64,000 bases of DNA. It comes from Spirosoma profusum (GTDB taxonomy: Bacteria; Bacteroidota; Bacteroidia; Cytophagales; Spirosomataceae). The notes beneath the pieces are model-generated. The model was not told the DNA's origin and did no database searches. It saw nothing but the letters and a program-made list of their open reading frames with translations. Below, piece after piece: positions 7,390-16,573 of this stretch (within the stretch, counting starts at the first letter, position 1; each line of letters opens with the position of its first letter). The stretch lies in the NCBI RefSeq assembly GCF_014699005.1, contig NZ_JACWZY010000003.1, positions 124,001 to 188,000 of the forward strand. Direction: 5' to 3'. The translations under genes and the position numbers were made by a program.

Positions 7390-8013
7390 TCAATCAACAA
7401 TCTTCACCCGAATCTTGTGCGGAGCTGGCTGATTACCCCCGAAATACAGCCCTGTGTTGTAGCCAAATGTCTTATTGTGGGTAAACGGAATCGTTTTGCC
7501 ACCCAGAACCTGATAAACTTTTCGGTCGTAATCGATTTTGATGGTCAGTTTGGTGGGTGTATTGATGGCCGCTTCGGCCACTTTAAAATCAGTACGTACG
7601 CCACCTACATATACATACGCGCCCAAATCGATACGTTTGCGCGTTGGATTCCAGCGCCAGCCAACCCGCGCCCCATCAACCTGATGCGGAGGGACGCCAG
7701 TCGTAATATCCTGATCTTTCGAGCCGACAAACCCTATCCCGATTACTTTGTTCCAATCGTCGGCATCGGCCTGACCAATGTCGTAAATACAACTGCTATC
7801 GAACGTAACGGTGGCTGTGATTTCGGTAGGAGCAATCGTTATTCCTACTTTGCGTTTCGGATTGGGTTCATGTTCTCCTGCTTCAATTTCTACCCAATCG
7901 GGGTCAGAAAGCAGAAAATCAGGTACACATCCACTCATGAAAAGACTTATCCCGAACAGCAACAGGCTGAGCTTGAGTGAAGAAACCTGAAAAAACGTTT
8001 TGGAACGTAGCAT
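7390..8013 (-). CDS. Hypothetical lipoprotein
   Basis: 207 residues, not recognised. The N-terminus is a type II signal peptide with lipobox FMSGC at about residues 25-29. The mature part is beta-rich with alternating charged strands (VGITIAPTEITATVTFDSSC, TPTKLTIKIDYDRKVYQV), suggesting a small beta-sandwich exposed on a membrane surface. There is a second cysteine in DSSCIYDIG. No catalytic motif is visible. It stands alone: family A repeat copy 1 follows it, and 209 bp separate its start from the divergent membrane-protein gene at 8223. Confidence 0.75.
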   Translation of the reverse strand: MLRSKTFFQVSSLKLSLLLFGISLFMSGCVPDFLLSDPDWVEIEAGEHEPNPKRKVGITIAPTEITATVTFDSSCIYDIGQADADDWNKVIGIGFVGSKDQDITTGVPPHQVDGARVGWRWNPTRKRIDLGAYVYVGGVRTDFKVAEAAINTPTKLTIKIDYDRKVYQVLGGKTIPFTHNKTFGYNTGLYFGGNQPAPHKIRVKIVD

Positions 8014-8222: not shown

Positions 8223-9428
8223 ATGCGCCCAGCCGTTTCTTCTTCTTTTCCTGCCATTCAGAGTTACATCTACGCCGTCGTTTTTTCTTCGTTTTGTGTG
8301 GTCATGGGCCTGCTCTGGGATATCATGTGGCACATGAGCATTGGTCGCGATGGCCTGCTGGCTCCTCCGCACGTAGTAATTTACGTAGGGGCCATCGTAG
8401 CTGGTCTTTTTTCGGCCTACCAGATTCTAAACCTGACCTTTTCCCGAAATCACCCCGGCCGATCCCAGGCTGTGCCGTTCTGGGGCATTTTTTATGGGCC
8501 GCTGGGCGCCATGTTCTGCGTCTGGGGAGCCCTGATGATGCTAACGTCGGCCCCTTTCGATGATTGGTGGCATAATACCTATGGTCTTGACGTTCAGATA
8601 TTAACGCCACCGCATACCATTCTGGCCATCGGTATCATGACCGTACAGTTTGGCGCGATGGTAGGTGTGTTGGCCCTTCAGAATCAATACCGCACCCTGC
8701 CCGAAGCTGAATTAGTACTCGATGGCCCACGCGCTACGCGACTGAAGTGGCTGTTTGCAGTTGCCGCTGCCCTGTTGCTGGCCATGCTTTTTTCGATGGC
8801 GTCGGAGTCGATGGGAAAATTTGAATCGCATAACTCGGTATACTACGCTACGGCATCTATTGTACTGCCATTTTATTTACTGGCGGTTGGTCGGGCGTCG
8901 TTGCTACGCTGGCCAATTACGATTATTGCCGGATTGTACATGCTGGCGCTCCTTCTACCAAGCTGGATTCTTCAATTTTTTTCGGCCACACCTCGCCTTG
9001 GTCCGGTTCTGAATCCAATTACGAACTACCAGCCTTTCCATTTTCCGATGCTGCTCATTGTACCCGCTTTTGCACTAGACTGGCTGATGCACCGTTTTGA
9101 AAAACCTGCTAATGGCCAGAAGAAGTTGAACGACTGGCTACTGGCTTTGATTTATGGCGTAGTATTTATGTTGATTTTACTGGCCGTTCAGTGGCCTTTT
9201 GGCGAGTTTCTGTTAACATCACCTTACGCACGTAACGGCATCTTTCTATCTAACTCCTGGTCATACGACAGCCCACCTGATTGGGAATTTCGCTTCGCGT
9301 TTGCACCCTGGTATCAGCAATCGCCTGCCGATTTCTGGATTGGTTTTGCCAAATCTCTCATCTACGCTACGTTATCTGCCCGCGTCGGTCTCTATTGGGG
9401 TAATTGGATGAAGAACATAGCGCGGTAA
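8223..9428 (+). CDS. Multi-pass membrane protein with duplicated D-x3-H...PPH motif (candidate metal site)
   Basis: 401 residues with about ten hydrophobic segments. No function can be named from homology I can recall. Two related motifs sit at the ends of early helices: WDIMWHMSIGRDGLLAPPH (Asp33, His37, His50) and DDWWHNTYGLDVQILTPPH (Asp113/114, His117, His131). Each gives Asp-x3-His followed 13 or 14 residues later by a His after Pro-Pro, so it looks like an internal duplication. The first spacing is the same as that of the copper ligands in the PmoC subunit of particulate methane monooxygenase (Asp156, His160, His173). That match is motif-level only. The gene ends 35 bp before the next gene, whose product has an exported His-rich architecture, so the two probably form an operon. 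Start ATG follows a TATTTTTG box. Confidence 0.8.
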   Translation: MRPAVSSSFPAIQSYIYAVVFSSFCVVMGLLWDIMWHMSIGRDGLLAPPHVVIYVGAIVAGLFSAYQILNLTFSRNHPGRSQAVPFWGIFYGPLGAMFCVWGALMMLTSAPFDDWWHNTYGLDVQILTPPHTILAIGIMTVQFGAMVGVLALQNQYRTLPEAELVLDGPRATRLKWLFAVAAALLLAMLFSMASESMGKFESHNSVYYATASIVLPFYLLAVGRASLLRWPITIIAGLYMLALLLPSWILQFFSATPRLGPVLNPITNYQPFHFPMLLIVPAFALDWLMHRFEKPANGQKKLNDWLLALIYGVVFMLILLAVQWPFGEFLLTSPYARNGIFLSNSWSYDSPPDWEFRFAFAPWYQQSPADFWIGFAKSLIYATLSARVGLYWGNWMKNIAR

Positions 9429-9463
9429 ACAGCAAACGAAAAGTACAGAAACGAAAAATTAGT

Positions 9464-11155
9464 ATGTCCTCTCAGATTAGGAATTTCAGTCGGATAAAGT
9501 GGTACGTCCTGTTTTATTCATTCATTCTCATATTCACTCATTCACACATTGCCACTGCCCACATTGGCAGTTCGGGCATTATTGTTCAGAAACAGGTCGG
9601 TAAATACCAGCTTTTAATCAGCGTTAGCCCACCCGACGTAGTGCCCGGAACCGCGAGGGTGACTGTATTTGTCGAACAGGGACGGGTTCGTGAAATTGGT
9701 GCGCGGCCCATCTATTTCCGCTCGGGCGATGAAGGTGCCCCAACGCACGATATTCTCACCACTGTTAGTCAGAACCGCTACGAAGCCGATTTATGGCTGA
9801 TGGATTCCGGTGCATCGAGCATAGAAATAAGCATCGACGGCCCCGATGGAAAACAACAGGTGGTCGTGCCCGTTATGGCCATTGCTACCGCCATGCGCGA
9901 CATGCCTGCCGGAACCGGTTGGGGCTTAGCGGCAATGGGGCTGTTACTGATCGTGATGCTGATTACGATTATCGGAGCCAGTAATGCGGATGGTATTACA
10001 GCACCTGATCAACCTGTAACGCCTGTGCTACGTCGCAAACGATTGATCGGTATGGGTATTGGTCTGGTAAGCGTTACGTTGATTCTGGTCGGATGGCGCT
10101 CGTGGTGGAACAGTACGGCTGAGGAATACAAGAGCGAGCAACTTTACCAGCCTACACGGATCAATACGTCGGTACGTATCACCGATGCGCAACGGCAACT
10201 CACCATTCAGTTCGATACGGCAGGAGCGAAAAACCAGCGAAAACGGCTTTTCAGCTACCTTCTGCCCGATCATGGTAAATTGATGCATACCTTCATCGTT
10301 CGGATACCGGGGCTGGATGCATTTGCGCATTTACACCCAAACCGGCGCGATACGTTGAACTACAATGCTACGTTGCCAACCATGTTTCCGGGTGGGAAAT
10401 ATCTGGTTTATTCGGATGTCGTTTACCGAAGCGGCTTTACCGAAACGCTGACAGACACTATCGACGTACCATTTCTGAAAATCAGTGCCGAAGCAGCCGC
10501 CAACGCCAAACCCTCCGACCCGGACGATAGCTGGCTCGTCACCGAACCGATGGGTGTGAAAGCCAGCGCCGTGAACGTACCGCACCTCGACAATGACATG
10601 GTAGTTTGTGGTAAACCGGGGGCCAGTGTTACGTTGGAAGATGGGTCAACCATGCTCTGGATGGATAAGCCGAGCCAGATACTGGAATCGGGTAAACTCT
10701 ATACGCTGAAATTCGCCGTTGCCGATTCGAAGGGCAAAGCAGCCGCACTTGAACCGTATCTGGGAATGCCCGGTCATGCGGCCATACTACGTTCCGATGG
10801 GTCAGTTTATATTCATCTTCATCCCGTCGGTACGTATTCGATGGCGGCCGAAGGGTCTATGGTGGGACGTATTGCTGATACGTCGCGGACGTTTCATTAC
10901 CCGAATGCCGTTCAGTTCCGCGACAGCATCGATGCGTACGTGCAGAAATTGAAAACCGTGCCCGAAGCCGAAAAGAATACGTTACTGGCGGCCGCTATGC
11001 CTGGTATGAATCATGTCATGAAAGTGGCTAACATGGTTGAGTTTCCGTATGCGTTTCCGCGCGCAGGTCATTACCGAATTTGGGTGCAGGTGAAACGGAA
11101 TGGGCGCGTGCTGACGGGCGTGTTCGATACACAGGTGAATGACCCCTTGCTTTGA
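9464..11155 (+). CDS. Exported two-domain protein with two central membrane helices and HxH motifs (candidate copper protein)
   Basis: 563 residues. The chosen start (ATG 9464) puts a signal peptide at 11-32 ending ATA; cleavage there would expose an N-terminal histidine (His33, then IGSSG). A beta-rich domain runs to about 150 and includes PTHD (His95, Asp96). Two hydrophobic helices follow (WGLAAMGLLLIVMLITIIGA; LIGMGIGLVSVTLILVGW). A large extracytoplasmic part has AFAHLHP and later GMPGHAAIL and YIHLHPVG, both with HxH, and ends PYAFPRAGHYRIWVQVKRNG, as in YtkA/FixH-like domains. The order domain, two helices, domain, with a mature N-terminal His, resembles PmoB of copper monooxygenases; an N-terminal His is also typical of CopC. 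A longer start at 9404 would overlap the upstream gene and disrupt the signal peptide. Confidence 0.8.
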   Translation: MSSQIRNFSRIKWYVLFYSFILIFTHSHIATAHIGSSGIIVQKQVGKYQLLISVSPPDVVPGTARVTVFVEQGRVREIGARPIYFRSGDEGAPTHDILTTVSQNRYEADLWLMDSGASSIEISIDGPDGKQQVVVPVMAIATAMRDMPAGTGWGLAAMGLLLIVMLITIIGASNADGITAPDQPVTPVLRRKRLIGMGIGLVSVTLILVGWRSWWNSTAEEYKSEQLYQPTRINTSVRITDAQRQLTIQFDTAGAKNQRKRLFSYLLPDHGKLMHTFIVRIPGLDAFAHLHPNRRDTLNYNATLPTMFPGGKYLVYSDVVYRSGFTETLTDTIDVPFLKISAEAAANAKPSDPDDSWLVTEPMGVKASAVNVPHLDNDMVVCGKPGASVTLEDGSTMLWMDKPSQILESGKLYTLKFAVADSKGKAAALEPYLGMPGHAAILRSDGSVYIHLHPVGTYSMAAEGSMVGRIADTSRTFHYPNAVQFRDSIDAYVQKLKTVPEAEKNTLLAAAMPGMNHVMKVANMVEFPYAFPRAGHYRIWVQVKRNGRVLTGVFDTQVNDPLL

Positions 11156-11251
11156 AGCAGTAGTTTAGCCGGTTTTTTGGTTTTTGTCTGGGTAAATCAA
11201 CAACCCAGCGCTATGTTGGGAAAACGCTTTCGCTACAATTTGTCCTGCTTT

Positions 11252-12196
11252 ATGGCTCAATCTGTAACCCGTCGTCAGGCATTAACCGCACTGACGGCCA
11301 CCACTGGCGCATCGCTTATGTCAACGTCGGCATTGCCCGCAGCTAACCCAACGGCTGCCGCTCCTTTTACCTTGTGCCTGAATATGAGCACGATTCGGGG
11401 CCACAAACTTGGTTTTGTGAAGGAACTGGAAGTGGCTTCCAAAGCAGGGTTTCGTTCGGTGGAGATATGGATTGAAACGTTGCAAACGTATCTGAAATCG
11501 GGTGCTACGTCTGCTGACGCGCGTAAAGTGCTGGCCGATACGGGTATCAAAGTGGAAAATGCCATTGGTTTTGCGCCCTGGATTGTGGACGACGAAGCTA
11601 CCCGCACAAAAGGTCTCGACCAGATGAAGCGCGAAATGGAGATGCTGGCGGAAGTTGGATGCAAACGTGTAGCCACGCCCCCCATTGGGGCGCAAACGCC
11701 AGGAAGCCCAAAAGTTGATTTATACAAAGCCGCCGAACGTTATCGGGCCATTCTGGAAATTGGCGACAAAACGGGCGTAGTGCCTCAACTGGAACTATGG
11801 GGCTTTTCGCCGAATCTGAGTAAGCTAAGTGAAGTCATGTTCGTAGCTATCGAAACCGGCCATCCATCGGCGCGGGTACTGCTTGATATTTACCACCTCT
11901 ACAAAGGCGGGACTCCTGTTGAGGTTCTAAAACTGGTTGGCAAACCGGCGATGGAAATTTTCCACGTAAACGACTACACAAAGGATTTTCCCCGCGAAAA
12001 AATCACCGACGCCGACCGTGTTTTCCCGGGCGATGGTATAGCGCCAATCAAGGAAACGCTCAAGATCATCAAGCGCACCGACCAACCTATCATCCTATCG
12101 CTGGAGGTATTCAACAAAACCTACTACGCGCAGGATGCCGCAACCGTCACACAAACGGCTATGACCAAAATGAAGGCGATGGTAGCAGGAGTGTAA
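11252..12196 (+). CDS. Sugar phosphate isomerase/epimerase-like TIM barrel, Tat-exported
   Basis: 314 residues from the ATG at 11252. The N-terminus SVTRRQALTALTATTGASLM has twin arginines followed by a hydrophobic stretch, a Tat signal. The mature protein is a xylose-isomerase-like (AP endonuclease 2 superfamily) barrel: GFRSVEIWIETL, GCKRVATPPIG, VPQLELWGFSPNL, ARVLLDIYHLYKGG, IFHVNDYTKDFP, FPGDGIAPIKETL. The Glu, Asp-His, His-x-Asn-Asp and late Glu (ILSLEVFN) are the expected divalent metal ligands. The substrate is probably a sugar or cyclitol but cannot be named. An upstream in-frame ATG at 11177 would add 25 residues before the Tat motif, so the later start is preferred. The gene starts 97 bp after the upstream plus-strand gene; a family A repeat follows its stop. 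Confidence 0.88.
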   Translation: MAQSVTRRQALTALTATTGASLMSTSALPAANPTAAAPFTLCLNMSTIRGHKLGFVKELEVASKAGFRSVEIWIETLQTYLKSGATSADARKVLADTGIKVENAIGFAPWIVDDEATRTKGLDQMKREMEMLAEVGCKRVATPPIGAQTPGSPKVDLYKAAERYRAILEIGDKTGVVPQLELWGFSPNLSKLSEVMFVAIETGHPSARVLLDIYHLYKGGTPVEVLKLVGKPAMEIFHVNDYTKDFPREKITDADRVFPGDGIAPIKETLKIIKRTDQPIILSLEVFNKTYYAQDAATVTQTAMTKMKAMVAGV

Positions 12197-13580: not shown

Positions 13581-15518
13581 ATGCAAGCCCTTCGGTGGTG
13601 GGTTTTGGGCCTGTTTGCCGGTGTTTTGACCGGACAACGTAGCGTCGCGCAAACGGATTCGTTGCGGACGACTTCGGTTGTGTCGCTGTCGGTGGTGACG
13701 GTGCGAGCCATTGCGCCCGAACGGTTCATTGCGGGTCAGAAGCTCCAGCGCATTGATTCCACTACGTTGCTTCAGTTTCAGTTTGGCTCGCTGACCGATT
13801 TACTGACCTTTAATACGCCACTGGCATTCAAAAACTACGGTTCGGGTCAGTTGGCTACGGTTTCGTTTCGCGGTACGTCGGCGAATCATACGGCTGTGCT
13901 CTGGAATGGTATCAACATCAATCAGCCGAATCTGGGACAAACCGATTTTTCGACGCTTCCTGTGGCTGGTTTCGACCTATTATCGGTGCAGTACGGGGCT
14001 GGTGGTTGTGTGGTTGGGTCCGATGCTGTGGGCGGGAGTGTTCTTCTGAGTAGCGCGCCTGACTGGAAGCAAAAGTTCAGTGTTACGTTGGGCCAGCAAC
14101 TGGCTTCGTTTCAAAATTACCAGACACAACTCGGTATTCGATATGGAACTAAGTTGGGCGAAAACTGGCAGTTTTCCGGTCGATCATTCGGGTATAGGCA
14201 CCAGTTAAACAATACGTACCCCTATCAGGAACGACGCGGCTATTTCCTCGAACCATCGACAACGGCCCAGCGTGGACTGGTGCAGGATTTGTTTTTTCGC
14301 CATAAAAGCGGGAAACAGATTTCAGTGAATGCGTGGCTGACTGATAATGACCTGATTATTGCTCCACAAGACCCTATTGCACGCGAACGTACTCGGACCC
14401 AATCGGCTCGTTTTCTTACTACCTATGAAGCCAATCAACTTAGTATTCGAATGGGCTGGATTCGCGACCTGATTGATTATGCAAAAGAAGATTTCTCGGG
14501 CCCGAGCCATACTGAAACTGACCGTCTTATAAGTCGTGTCGAACGGGAGTTTAATCTCTGGCCGGGGCACCAATCGGTCAATCTGAATCTGCGTGTTGGT
14601 GGCGAGTGGTCGCATTACCGCACGAGAACCGACGGGTACGGTGGTAGATTGATTACCGAAAATCGACAGGATTTGTATGCTTTGCTACGTCTCCAGACGA
14701 ATCGCTGGTTAGTCTCGGCCAATGTTCGGCAGGCGTTTGTCACGCGCTTCAATCCGCCCCTGACCCCTTCGCTGGGCGTTGAATACAAACTGGTTCAACG
14801 TAGCATCTGGAATGTAATCGCCAAAAGTTCAATTGGTTATAGCTACCGCGTTCCTACGTTGAATGAGCGTTACTGGCTTGTGCTAGGCAATCCTGACCAG
14901 CGACCGGAGCGAGGTATGAACATAGAAGGCGGGCTGGCTGCAACTGCTGCGTTCTCCGATCAGTTAAAGCTAACTGCTGAAGCTACTGCCTATCACAACC
15001 GCGTCGATGATTGGGCGTACTGGAATCCGACCAAAAATTACCATGTTGAAAACCTGCAATTGGTCGTAGCGCGTGGGCTGGAGCTGACCACTACGTTGAC
15101 TTACACACGTAATGGCTGGCAGGCAGGTTTACGGGCGGGATACGCTTACACACGGGCCTCTCAGGAGCGCGTGTATGATACGTATGCACAGGACGTAGTA
15201 GGCAAACAACTGGTTTACGTTCCGATGCATACCGGTACGTTCAACGTATACGTTCAACGTACCAAAACTCGCCTGACTGTTCAGACGCAAACGTCATCAC
15301 GACGCTACGTTACGTTCGATAATACTCAGTTTTTCAAAGGTGTTACGTTGGCGAACGTATTGCTGGAGCATTTAATGAAACTCGGTCCGGTACCTGTTCG
15401 CGTGCAGGGGCAGGCCAACAACGTATTCGATGCATTGGCCATCAGCGCCAAACGGAATGCCCTTCCGGGACGTAACTGGGCAATAAATCTGATTATTAAT
15501 TTTCCATCTAATACCTAA
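13581..15518 (+). CDS. btuB: TonB-dependent outer membrane receptor, probably for cobalamin
   Basis: 645 residues with signal peptide WWVLGLFAGVLTGQRSVAQ. The plug domain lies at about 45-165 (GSLTDLLTFNTPLAFKNYGS, TVSFRGTSANHTAVLWNGIN, GGCVVGSDAVGGSVLL). A 22-strand-type barrel follows, full of alternating aromatic strands, ending in ALPGRNWAINLIINF near the C-terminus. The length fits BtuB-like transporters (about 600-650) and it lacks the SusC N-terminal extension. The cobalamin role is inferred from the riboswitch directly upstream. Its stop codon shares a base with the start of the next gene (TAATG), indicating translational coupling. Confidence 0.9.
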   Translation: MQALRWWVLGLFAGVLTGQRSVAQTDSLRTTSVVSLSVVTVRAIAPERFIAGQKLQRIDSTTLLQFQFGSLTDLLTFNTPLAFKNYGSGQLATVSFRGTSANHTAVLWNGININQPNLGQTDFSTLPVAGFDLLSVQYGAGGCVVGSDAVGGSVLLSSAPDWKQKFSVTLGQQLASFQNYQTQLGIRYGTKLGENWQFSGRSFGYRHQLNNTYPYQERRGYFLEPSTTAQRGLVQDLFFRHKSGKQISVNAWLTDNDLIIAPQDPIARERTRTQSARFLTTYEANQLSIRMGWIRDLIDYAKEDFSGPSHTETDRLISRVEREFNLWPGHQSVNLNLRVGGEWSHYRTRTDGYGGRLITENRQDLYALLRLQTNRWLVSANVRQAFVTRFNPPLTPSLGVEYKLVQRSIWNVIAKSSIGYSYRVPTLNERYWLVLGNPDQRPERGMNIEGGLAATAAFSDQLKLTAEATAYHNRVDDWAYWNPTKNYHVENLQLVVARGLELTTTLTYTRNGWQAGLRAGYAYTRASQERVYDTYAQDVVGKQLVYVPMHTGTFNVYVQRTKTRLTVQTQTSSRRYVTFDNTQFFKGVTLANVLLEHLMKLGPVPVRVQGQANNVFDALAISAKRNALPGRNWAINLIINFPSNT

Positions 15519-16573
15519 TGAAAAAACAATCGACGAAAGGACTGGCCCTGATTGTACTGGCACTGAGCGTGTGGAATTGTAAAACCTCTGATCCAGAGCC
15601 AACCCCTTATGAATCAGGAGTTTTTATTCTGAACTCAGGAAATTTTTCCGATAACAATGGCACTGTCTCATTTCTGCCACGTGGGAGTCAGACGGCTTTG
15701 ACGGATATTTTTCGGTCGGCTAATCCTGATCTGACATTGAGCGGGGGTATGCAGGGGTATGCCGATATAAGTGGTAAAGGATTGATTCTGGTTGATAACA
15801 GCACAGCGGGGCAGGATAAGGTTGAAGTGGTGGAAGCCGGTACGTTTAAAACCCGGTTTACGCTGAAATCGCCTGATATCGAAAATCCGCGTCAGGCGAT
15901 TCAGGTTGGGCCTAATCGGGCCTACGTTAGCTGCTGGGACGTATCGGGTGACTTCTCGAAAGGTACATTCTACAAAGATCCTGGCTATATCGCTGTTGTT
16001 GATTTGAATAGCAGTAAAGTCACAAAGAAAATCCTGGCGGTGAAAGGTGTAGAGCGGATGGTGCTGGTCGGAACTGAAGTGTTTGTGGGCAGTACGACCT
16101 ACAGTGGTGATAAAAATCTGCTGATTGTTGACGCGAATACGGATGAAGTAAAGCAACGTATCGAATTCAGTGCAACACCGGAACTAATTGGGCTTGATTT
16201 CGATGGAAAACTCTGGATACTGGCCGGAAAGGATCTGGTGCAGATTGAGCCTGCCACCCGCGCCACGATCAAGCGGTTAACGTTTGCCACGGCGCCGAGT
16301 AATGTTACGTTCAGTGCCGATAGAAAGCGATTCTATTACAACCTAAGCGGCAAAACCTATCGGCTCGATAACACGTCAACTACGGCCTCGGGAAGTCAGA
16401 TCATTGCCCGTACATTTAATACGTTGGGCGTCGATCCCCAAACGAAGACAATTTATGGGGCAGTCGTTCCGTCATACAAGCAGGCGGGGTACGTAGTGCG
16501 ATATGACGAAGGTGGTACGTTAATCGATTCGGTAAAAGTCGAAATCGGACCATCTGGTTTCTACTTCCGATGA
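15518..16573 (+). CDS. YncE/DUF5074-like beta-propeller lipoprotein of the B12 operon
   Basis: 351 residues. Lipoprotein signal with LSVWNC as lipobox (Cys about 21). The mature part repeats propeller-blade strands (GVFILNSGNFSDNNGTVSFL, YIAVVDLNSSKVTKKILAV, NLLIVDANTDEVKQRIEF, LDFDGKLWILAGKDLVQIE), as in YncE/DUF5074 surface proteins of Bacteroidota. Such lipoproteins often sit beside B12 TonB receptors and are thought to help capture ligand at the surface. Its start overlaps the receptor stop and its own stop overlaps the next start (ATGA), so the three genes form one coupled operon under the riboswitch. The binding role is inference. Confidence 0.85.
   Translation: MKKQSTKGLALIVLALSVWNCKTSDPEPTPYESGVFILNSGNFSDNNGTVSFLPRGSQTALTDIFRSANPDLTLSGGMQGYADISGKGLILVDNSTAGQDKVEVVEAGTFKTRFTLKSPDIENPRQAIQVGPNRAYVSCWDVSGDFSKGTFYKDPGYIAVVDLNSSKVTKKILAVKGVERMVLVGTEVFVGSTTYSGDKNLLIVDANTDEVKQRIEFSATPELIGLDFDGKLWILAGKDLVQIEPATRATIKRLTFATAPSNVTFSADRKRFYYNLSGKTYRLDNTSTTASGSQIIARTFNTLGVDPQTKTIYGAVVPSYKQAGYVVRYDEGGTLIDSVKVEIGPSGFYFR

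Follow-up and report, generated by a model that had tools for sequence, protein, structure and literature searches.

A conserved two-gene membrane protein family of Spirosoma profusum that may be a distant relative of copper membrane monooxygenases

What do two adjacent genes of Spirosoma profusum, an ordinary heterotroph, encode, and is their product related to the copper membrane monooxygenases (CuMMOs), which make methane and ammonia oxidation possible? The genes, here called A and B, stand in tandem on the forward strand of a 64,000-nucleotide stretch (the window; contig NZ_JACWZY010000003.1, positions 124,001 to 188,000), with open reading frames (ORFs) where the original prediction had placed them, that of B counted from its ATG (Table 1). 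The prediction took the pair for a diverged copper membrane complex, oxygenase or relay, and likened A to the PmoC and B to the PmoB subunit of particulate methane monooxygenase (pMMO). The comparisons presented here indicate a likely homology between the first part of A and PmoC, and the pair belongs to an unnamed family with members in several phyla of bacteria; this family may be distantly related to the enzymes that oxidise methane and ammonia.

A pattern-limited scan of species-representative genomes for relatives of A returned 328 stretches, of which 315 proved to be such relatives. From these the best 80 were retained; wherever their record titles name a group it is one of the Bacteroidota, the phylum to which we take these loci to belong. 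B adjoins A downstream on the same strand in 77 of the 80, and in L009, L017 and L033 (L numbers denote loci) the contig ends soon after A; counts for B refer to the 77 loci that have it. Relatives of A with the motifs kept also lie on plasmids of Actinomycetota, Deinococcota and Bacillota. From this distant set (17 plasmid records, 14 loci retrieved), 12 sequences were aligned with 14 from Bacteroidota, hand-picked out of 81 for their spread, to give a 26-sequence alignment covering the four phyla. It leaves aside Rubrobacter, whose A-like gene has intact motifs and a reading frame that is split in the record (L103, 7904-9022), and Chlorohelix, a chimera in which an A-like N-terminus that has lost its His ligands starts a protein annotated as a histidine kinase (L204, 6001-10122).

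The two metal motifs described for A are present as written, and D33, H37, H50, D113, H117 and H131 are invariant in 80/80 Bacteroidota loci and in all 26 aligned sequences. The other histidines of A are less well kept (H203 in 78, H290 in 35, H77 in 28 and H273 in 16 of the 80 loci). Given 66 invariant positions out of 401 (45 sequences), the chance that all six named residues are invariant is (66/401)^6, approximately 2e-5, a rough figure that assumes independence and equal odds for each residue type. In the predicted structure of A (mean predicted local distance difference test score, pLDDT, 88.1; predicted template modelling score 0.89), helices 1 and 3 end with D33/H37 and D113/H117, and helices 2 and 4 begin with H50 and H131. 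Such placement at helix ends is as expected for sites on one membrane face, and to that extent the model agrees with the membrane-face position on which the prediction depended.

CuC of pMMO is formed by D156, H160 and H173 and CuD by N227, H231 and H245, the two lying approximately 6 Å apart and never both filled, with R165 and F177 surrounding CuD, according to PMC12576850. The first motif of A has the x3/x12 spacing of CuC, as had been recognised; the second has exactly the x3/x13 spacing of CuD, which had been missed, and the motifs stand in the same order in both proteins. The likeness extends to the positions of W159, R165, D166 and P-x-H, to the four-helix core, and to the chemistry of the ligands (D/H/H and N or D/H/H). 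R165 and F177 are conserved in 23/23 PmoC sequences; their counterparts in the A family are R42 (20/26) and Tyr54 (25/26). However, the CuD Asn (23/23 in PmoC) is Asp in 26/26 members of the A family, with both His kept in all 26, and the Phe pocket of CuD is changed: Phe177 is replaced by Tyr54, Phe240 by Ile126 and Phe248 by Leu134. The last two replacements are read off alignments, and the Leu134/Phe248 pairing lies just beyond the aligned block. The A chain also differs from PmoC in continuing with six more helices.

Profile comparison in both directions, together with the ligand invariance, supports the proposed link between A and PmoC. A Bacteroidota-only profile was placed by hhalign on the CuC motif of PmoC (score 32.6, E 5e-4), above 45/45 decoy families. 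The 26-sequence profile scored 50.6 against 23 PmoC sequences over 90 columns, with six ligands in register (probability and E-value in Table 1); decoys from 45 families scored at most 17.4 against the family profile and 25.1 against PmoC, and none of 150 within-segment column shuffles attained the A-PmoC score (best 28.0). Hidden Markov model (HMM) searches in both directions covered a pool of 2,627 ORFs. With the family HMM, 87/87 PmoC proteins were recovered, their E-values (2.6e-7 to 0.0036) being lower in every case than that of the best unrelated ORF (0.029). With the PmoC HMM, 75 of 81 A proteins had E<=5 (best 2e-5), and 70 of these ranked before any unrelated ORF (1.2). Of four distant relatives scanned against Pfam, two had the AmoC model (PF04896) as their best match, sub-threshold at E 0.044 and 0.094; AmoC scores of the relatives, 12.5 and 13.6 bits, compare with a cut-off of 26.7, whereas subunits of an HMO operon, used as a control, score 197-320 bits.

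The C-terminal part of A was compared with PmoA. Among 350,542 PDB chains, the model of the whole of A matched at ranks 1-4 the chains 9cl6_B, 7s4h_B, 3rfr_B and 9cl2_Ca (all probability 1.00; template modelling score, TM-score, by target 0.54-0.56); the remaining 46 of the 50 matches listed have probabilities <=0.28. All four are PmoA/AmoA chains by sequence, the chain letters of 7s4h_B and 3rfr_B being deduced from the same entry and length, and they represent 4 of the 12 distinct PmoA/AmoA sequences listed. By eye, six C-terminal helices follow in the same order in A and in PmoA (PF02461), with common anchors at FxFP...P...LD, at a WP ending the fifth helix and at a final G-x-W; hhalign itself places the first two of these anchors, with weak statistics. 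Its scores for the C-part of A against PmoA were 23.6 and 23.2 (E 0.012 and 0.015), and one unrelated real decoy reached 26.4. In shuffles of the first match, 8 of 150 scored above 130 and were set aside (one inspected was a four-column artefact), and 0/142 others reached 23.6; none of 150 shuffles of the second reached its score. Narrower sets scored 20.7 (six sequences of Deinococcus, Paenibacillus and Rhodococcus type) and 12.0 (six actinobacterial). The C-part is poorly conserved within the superfamily, and its relation to PmoA is not proven by sequence alone. In the light of the fold match, A may combine PmoC-like and PmoA-like parts in one chain, unlike PmoA, which A does not match significantly in sequence. 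The statement that no PmoA-like third subunit is seen calls for revision, as the fold suggests that a PmoA-like part may lie within A.

Protein B has a signal peptide (by eye), and its H33 is His in 77/77 loci, with Ala, Gly or Ser at the preceding position in 77/77; these conserved residues fit the presumed cut that would expose His33, as had been suggested. The predicted layout is found in the model of B (mean pLDDT 83.7, below 50 at residues 28-34), which has a beta domain, helices 149-176 and 187-226, and then further beta domains. Both HLH motifs, H289-L-H291 and H451-L-H453, are present in 77/77, and H270, H275, H438 and C382 are likewise invariant (77/77). The signal peptide, the presumed mature N-terminal His, the beta domain, the two helices and a further beta domain all resemble PmoB (PF04744). 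However, B lacks the His-x-His pair of the first beta domain that, with the N-terminal His, makes up CuB in PmoB; the N domain has no other invariant His (H95 varies), there are two HLH domains instead, and neither Pfam nor any significant profile match lends support. B was accordingly dropped as a member of the PmoB family: its hhalign score of 25.2 (E 0.039) exceeds 45 decoys (best 22.7), but one of 79 shuffles reached it. A fold search of B returned generic multi-domain beta proteins that are not interpretable (TM-scores <=0.35 among the 50 matches listed).

In five actinobacterial relatives a signal-like helix leads from the A-like protein into a domain that starts AHDPGQG. Against this fused domain the N domain of B scored 27.4 (E 0.0015), and 24.5 (E 0.005) in reverse; with best decoys of 19.2 and 28.2 in the respective directions, the comparison is suggestive only. 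Because the domain fused to these A-like proteins weakly resembles the N domain of B, there are hints that A and the N domain of B act together. The internal signal-like helix (L104, L108, L197, L198 and L199) has AxA at its end, ahead of HDPGQG, as though cleavage there left a His at the N-terminus. The H...HLH motif of B is that of YtkA-like domains (PF13115), from which B differs in having two HLH regions, an N-terminal domain and helices; PF13115 matches 1 of 46 B proteins (E 0.0043) and not the B of the window. A similar stand-alone HLH protein in Gloeocapsa matches PF13115 below the cut-off (E 1.1e-4), and the stand-alone HLH protein beside the A-like ORF in Paenibacillus does not match it.

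The S. profusum genome holds a single copy each of A and B, and the closest named relatives of A are from Spirosoma (69-78% identity). A was found in 21 of 29 listed genomes of the family, in 38 of 241 genomes drawn evenly from the order (S. profusum included), and in even draws from the phylum in 3/296 (alignment query) and 1/148 (single-protein query). Two tandem A genes occur in L033 (7923-9173 and 9205-10431) and also in genome G174. In the clustering, the commonest third ORF family occurs in 29 of the 80 loci and is antisense to B. Seven of the 14 distant loci (L104, L105, L197, L198, L199, L202 and L205) lie near annotated heavy-metal ATPase, multicopper oxidase, CopC, cupredoxin or HMA genes. 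Two loci are equivocal: that of M. aubagnense has a YHS protein and a CopY-type regulator, and that of Arthrobacter a multicopper-oxidase-like motif only; no copper or heavy-metal genes are annotated near the Rubrobacter, D. taeanensis, D. deserti and Chlorohelix loci. The Paenibacillus locus is unannotated, and its HLH-type ORF overlaps the end of the A-like ORF.

With a probability of about 0.5, A and B would form a membrane copper complex on a CuMMO scaffold and be related to the CuMMOs, a reading that builds on what is established: the genes and their pairing, the invariant ligands and the match between the family profile and PmoC. The first four helices of A would be homologous to the PmoC core, the two three-residue sites at one membrane face would be the counterparts of CuC and CuD, and the remainder of A is probably the counterpart of PmoA. 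B would be anchored beside A by its two helices and would offer extra-membrane copper ligands, namely the mature N-terminal His and the two HLH domains. Most likely, B captures copper that is passed to the paired sites of A, or held and redox-cycled there. Copper as the metal is suggested by homology and context, and we infer that a complex forms and that copper is transferred, as well as the direction of flow and the purpose of the pair. The copper membrane complex originally proposed gains from the link between A and PmoC; its oxygenase side is weakened by the Asp at N227 and the loss of the Phe pocket. Because the CuD Asn is replaced by Asp and Phe177, Phe240 and Phe248 are replaced, pMMO-like hydroxylation is disfavoured and copper holding or transfer favoured, and our best guess is that copper handling is more likely than substrate hydroxylation.

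A number of results weigh against this reading. With the six ligand columns masked, the PmoC match falls to a score of 25.3 (E 0.005), about as high as the best decoy scores; when the two hairpins are swapped, the profile keeps a score of 46.6, over 22 columns and on one motif. As masking drops the match and swapped hairpins still score, the A-PmoC signal is mostly motif-sized, and for the same reason the homology is graded as likely and not proven; the fold result tips the balance. The decoys are a mild control, since at least three membrane segments are predicted in just 4 of the 45 families, and the PmoC HMM places just 6 of 81 A proteins at E<=0.01. The fold E-values of the PmoA/AmoA matches are just 0.02-0.07, and no PmoC chain is among the 50 fold matches listed for A. 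HMM searches in the ORF pool link neither the C-part of A to PmoA nor, in both directions, B to PmoB, and a C-part profile of the distant relatives barely recognises Bacteroidota A (best E 0.31). The Chlorohelix chimera, lacking the His ligands, is a counter-example to invariance; the Asp/His residues otherwise did not vary. A motif search near the 80 Bacteroidota pairs found a P1B-ATPase or multicopper oxidase in 0/80, and one small HMA-like ORF (L029); of the 3 distant loci in which a heavy-metal ATPase is annotated, the pattern recovered 2. Metal resistance is common on plasmids in general, and the copper context may therefore be inflated. Finally, a stand-alone pair in heterotrophs suits an enzyme no less than it suits copper handling.

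This last point leads to the possibility that the pair is a diverged oxygenase, a two-gene CuMMO with PmoC and PmoA fused in A and B standing for PmoB, which would react O2 at CuC/CuD with a small substrate. Both sites kept in their ligand positions (26/26), the second-sphere Arg (20/26), the PmoA-like fold of A, and the PmoB layout of B with its presumed N-terminal His would all suit such an enzyme, as would the conservation of the pair in heterotrophs that show no motif of a copper ATPase or multicopper oxidase near it and, just after B in 7 of 80 loci, an ORF family with a CLTCH haem-c motif in the one sequence shown. Yet N227 is Asp in 26/26, and PMC11194816, which assigns the active site of pMMO to CuD, stresses the neutral Asn and Phe177, Phe240 and Phe248 around it, where A has Tyr54, Ile126 and Leu134; the CuB His-x-His is absent, and half of the 14 distant relatives keep company with copper or heavy-metal genes. 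An oxygenase is on balance unlikely, if a serious contender, and would then probably have a chemistry other than that of pMMO. The CuD Asn may not define all CuMMOs, since the archaeal members described in PMC9038741 are also said to lack D-sites. It is rather doubtful that the family is a deeply branching sister lineage of the CuMMO superfamily spanning at least four phyla, with PmoC and PmoA in one protein, in which the Bacteroidota pair is an O2-reacting two-gene membrane copper enzyme of ordinary heterotrophs and the relatives in copper islands preserve a copper-binding state ancestral to methane and ammonia oxidation.

The decoy-level score after masking could also mean that A is an unrelated membrane metal-binding protein, for zinc, iron or copper, with D-x3-H...H hairpins that look like the PmoC sites by chance; the motifs are short, the Foldseek E-values weak, and PmoC is missing from the 50 matches listed. 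Chance would, however, have to supply two motifs that agree in order and in both spacings (x12 then x13), together with the W, R, D and P positions around them, a family HMM that separates PmoC completely from unrelated ORFs, and independent PmoA/AmoA fold matches at ranks 1-4 of 350,542 chains, making convergence quite improbable. It is very improbable that the metal sites of A report copper, O2 or redox state instead of moving copper: the A-like N-terminus of the annotated Chlorohelix kinase would suit a sensor, but that copy is without the His ligands, and no third ORF family stands constantly beside the pair in the 80 loci.

By several defining features the A/B pair is not a CuMMO, though judged from sequence it appears to have the same copper core. 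The CuC ligands Asp-x3-His-x12-His are found in A, and the CuD set Asn-x3-His-x13-His is not, Asp replacing Asn; of CuB only the N-terminal His is present (77/77); the A-subunit part has a fold match with a weak or negative sequence match; and in place of xmoC, xmoA and xmoB, A and B alone are common to the loci. Neither A nor B scores above the curated cut-offs of PF04896, PF02461 and PF04744. Which copper site of pMMO is catalytic (CuB, CuC or CuD) was long disputed. A family that keeps both PmoC sites, with Asn changed to Asp in CuD, and lacks the His pair of CuB lends itself to comparison on this question. Its members are also candidate outgroups for tracing how CuMMOs arose, in bacteria that are culturable, heterotrophic and amenable to gene deletion.

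Neither A nor B matches any Pfam or NCBIfam family above cut-off, and searches of Pfam, NCBIfam and the PDB sequences with A, B or their alignments gave nothing convincing. Weak Pfam matches are scattered, the best being DUF6338 (E 2.1e-4; 9 of 45 A proteins) and DUF4131 (E 4.7e-4; 6 of 46 B proteins). PF04896 does not match the A of the window and is absent from the 25 of 32 families listed for 45 A proteins; its lack of a match in the S. profusum genome is uninformative, as control genomes are silent too. No CopC or CopD Pfam match was obtained for A or B at E<=10, which gives no sign of copper uptake of that type. A fold search of A in BFVD found nothing (best probability 0.21 among 50 matches listed), and a scan of viral contigs found no relative of A. 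No description of such a pair was found in the open-access literature, judged by titles and abstract openings, and the words Bacteroidetes and fused are absent from the main text of PMC6215863 and PMC9038741, two CuMMO papers.

Table 1. Positions in the window of genes A and B and of their parts
Feature	Positions	Strand	Description
Gene A	8223..9428	+	401-residue polytopic membrane protein; PmoC-like N-terminal part, possibly PmoA-like C-terminal part
A residues 10-165	8250..8717	+	Four-helix part with both metal motifs, PmoC-like; hhalign Prob 93, E 3.1e-7 with the 26-sequence profile
A motif 1	8319..8372	+	D33-x3-H37-x12-H50, R42 inside, Y54 just after; register of PmoC CuC D156/H160/H173
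A motif 2	8559..8615	+	D113-x3-H117-x13-H131; register of PmoC CuD N227/H231/H245
A residues 165-401	8715..9425	+	Helix order as in PmoA (by eye); Foldseek ranks 1-4 of A are PmoA/AmoA
Gene B	9464..11155	+	Exported, 563 residues; signal peptide (by eye), then an N-terminal beta domain, two helices and two more beta domains
B His33 codon	9560..9562	+	Follows A-T-A; expected first residue of mature B
B first motif	10271..10336	+	H..MH...HLH: H270, M274, H275, H289, H291; all 77/77
B second motif	10766..10822	+	MxxH...HLH: M435, H438, H451, H453; all 77/77

Several neighbouring genes may be mentioned. Upstream of A in the window lies a divergent small lipoprotein-like gene (7390-8013); a gene family of similar type stands in that position in 17 of 80 loci. 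B is followed by an isomerase-like gene (11177-12196, PF01261) and, further on, by a TonB-receptor-like gene and then a lipoprotein with the look of a surface beta-propeller (by eye; 13581-16573). The CLTCH protein encoded just after B in L028 (10905-11387) is followed by a TIM-barrel isomerase-like gene (by eye).

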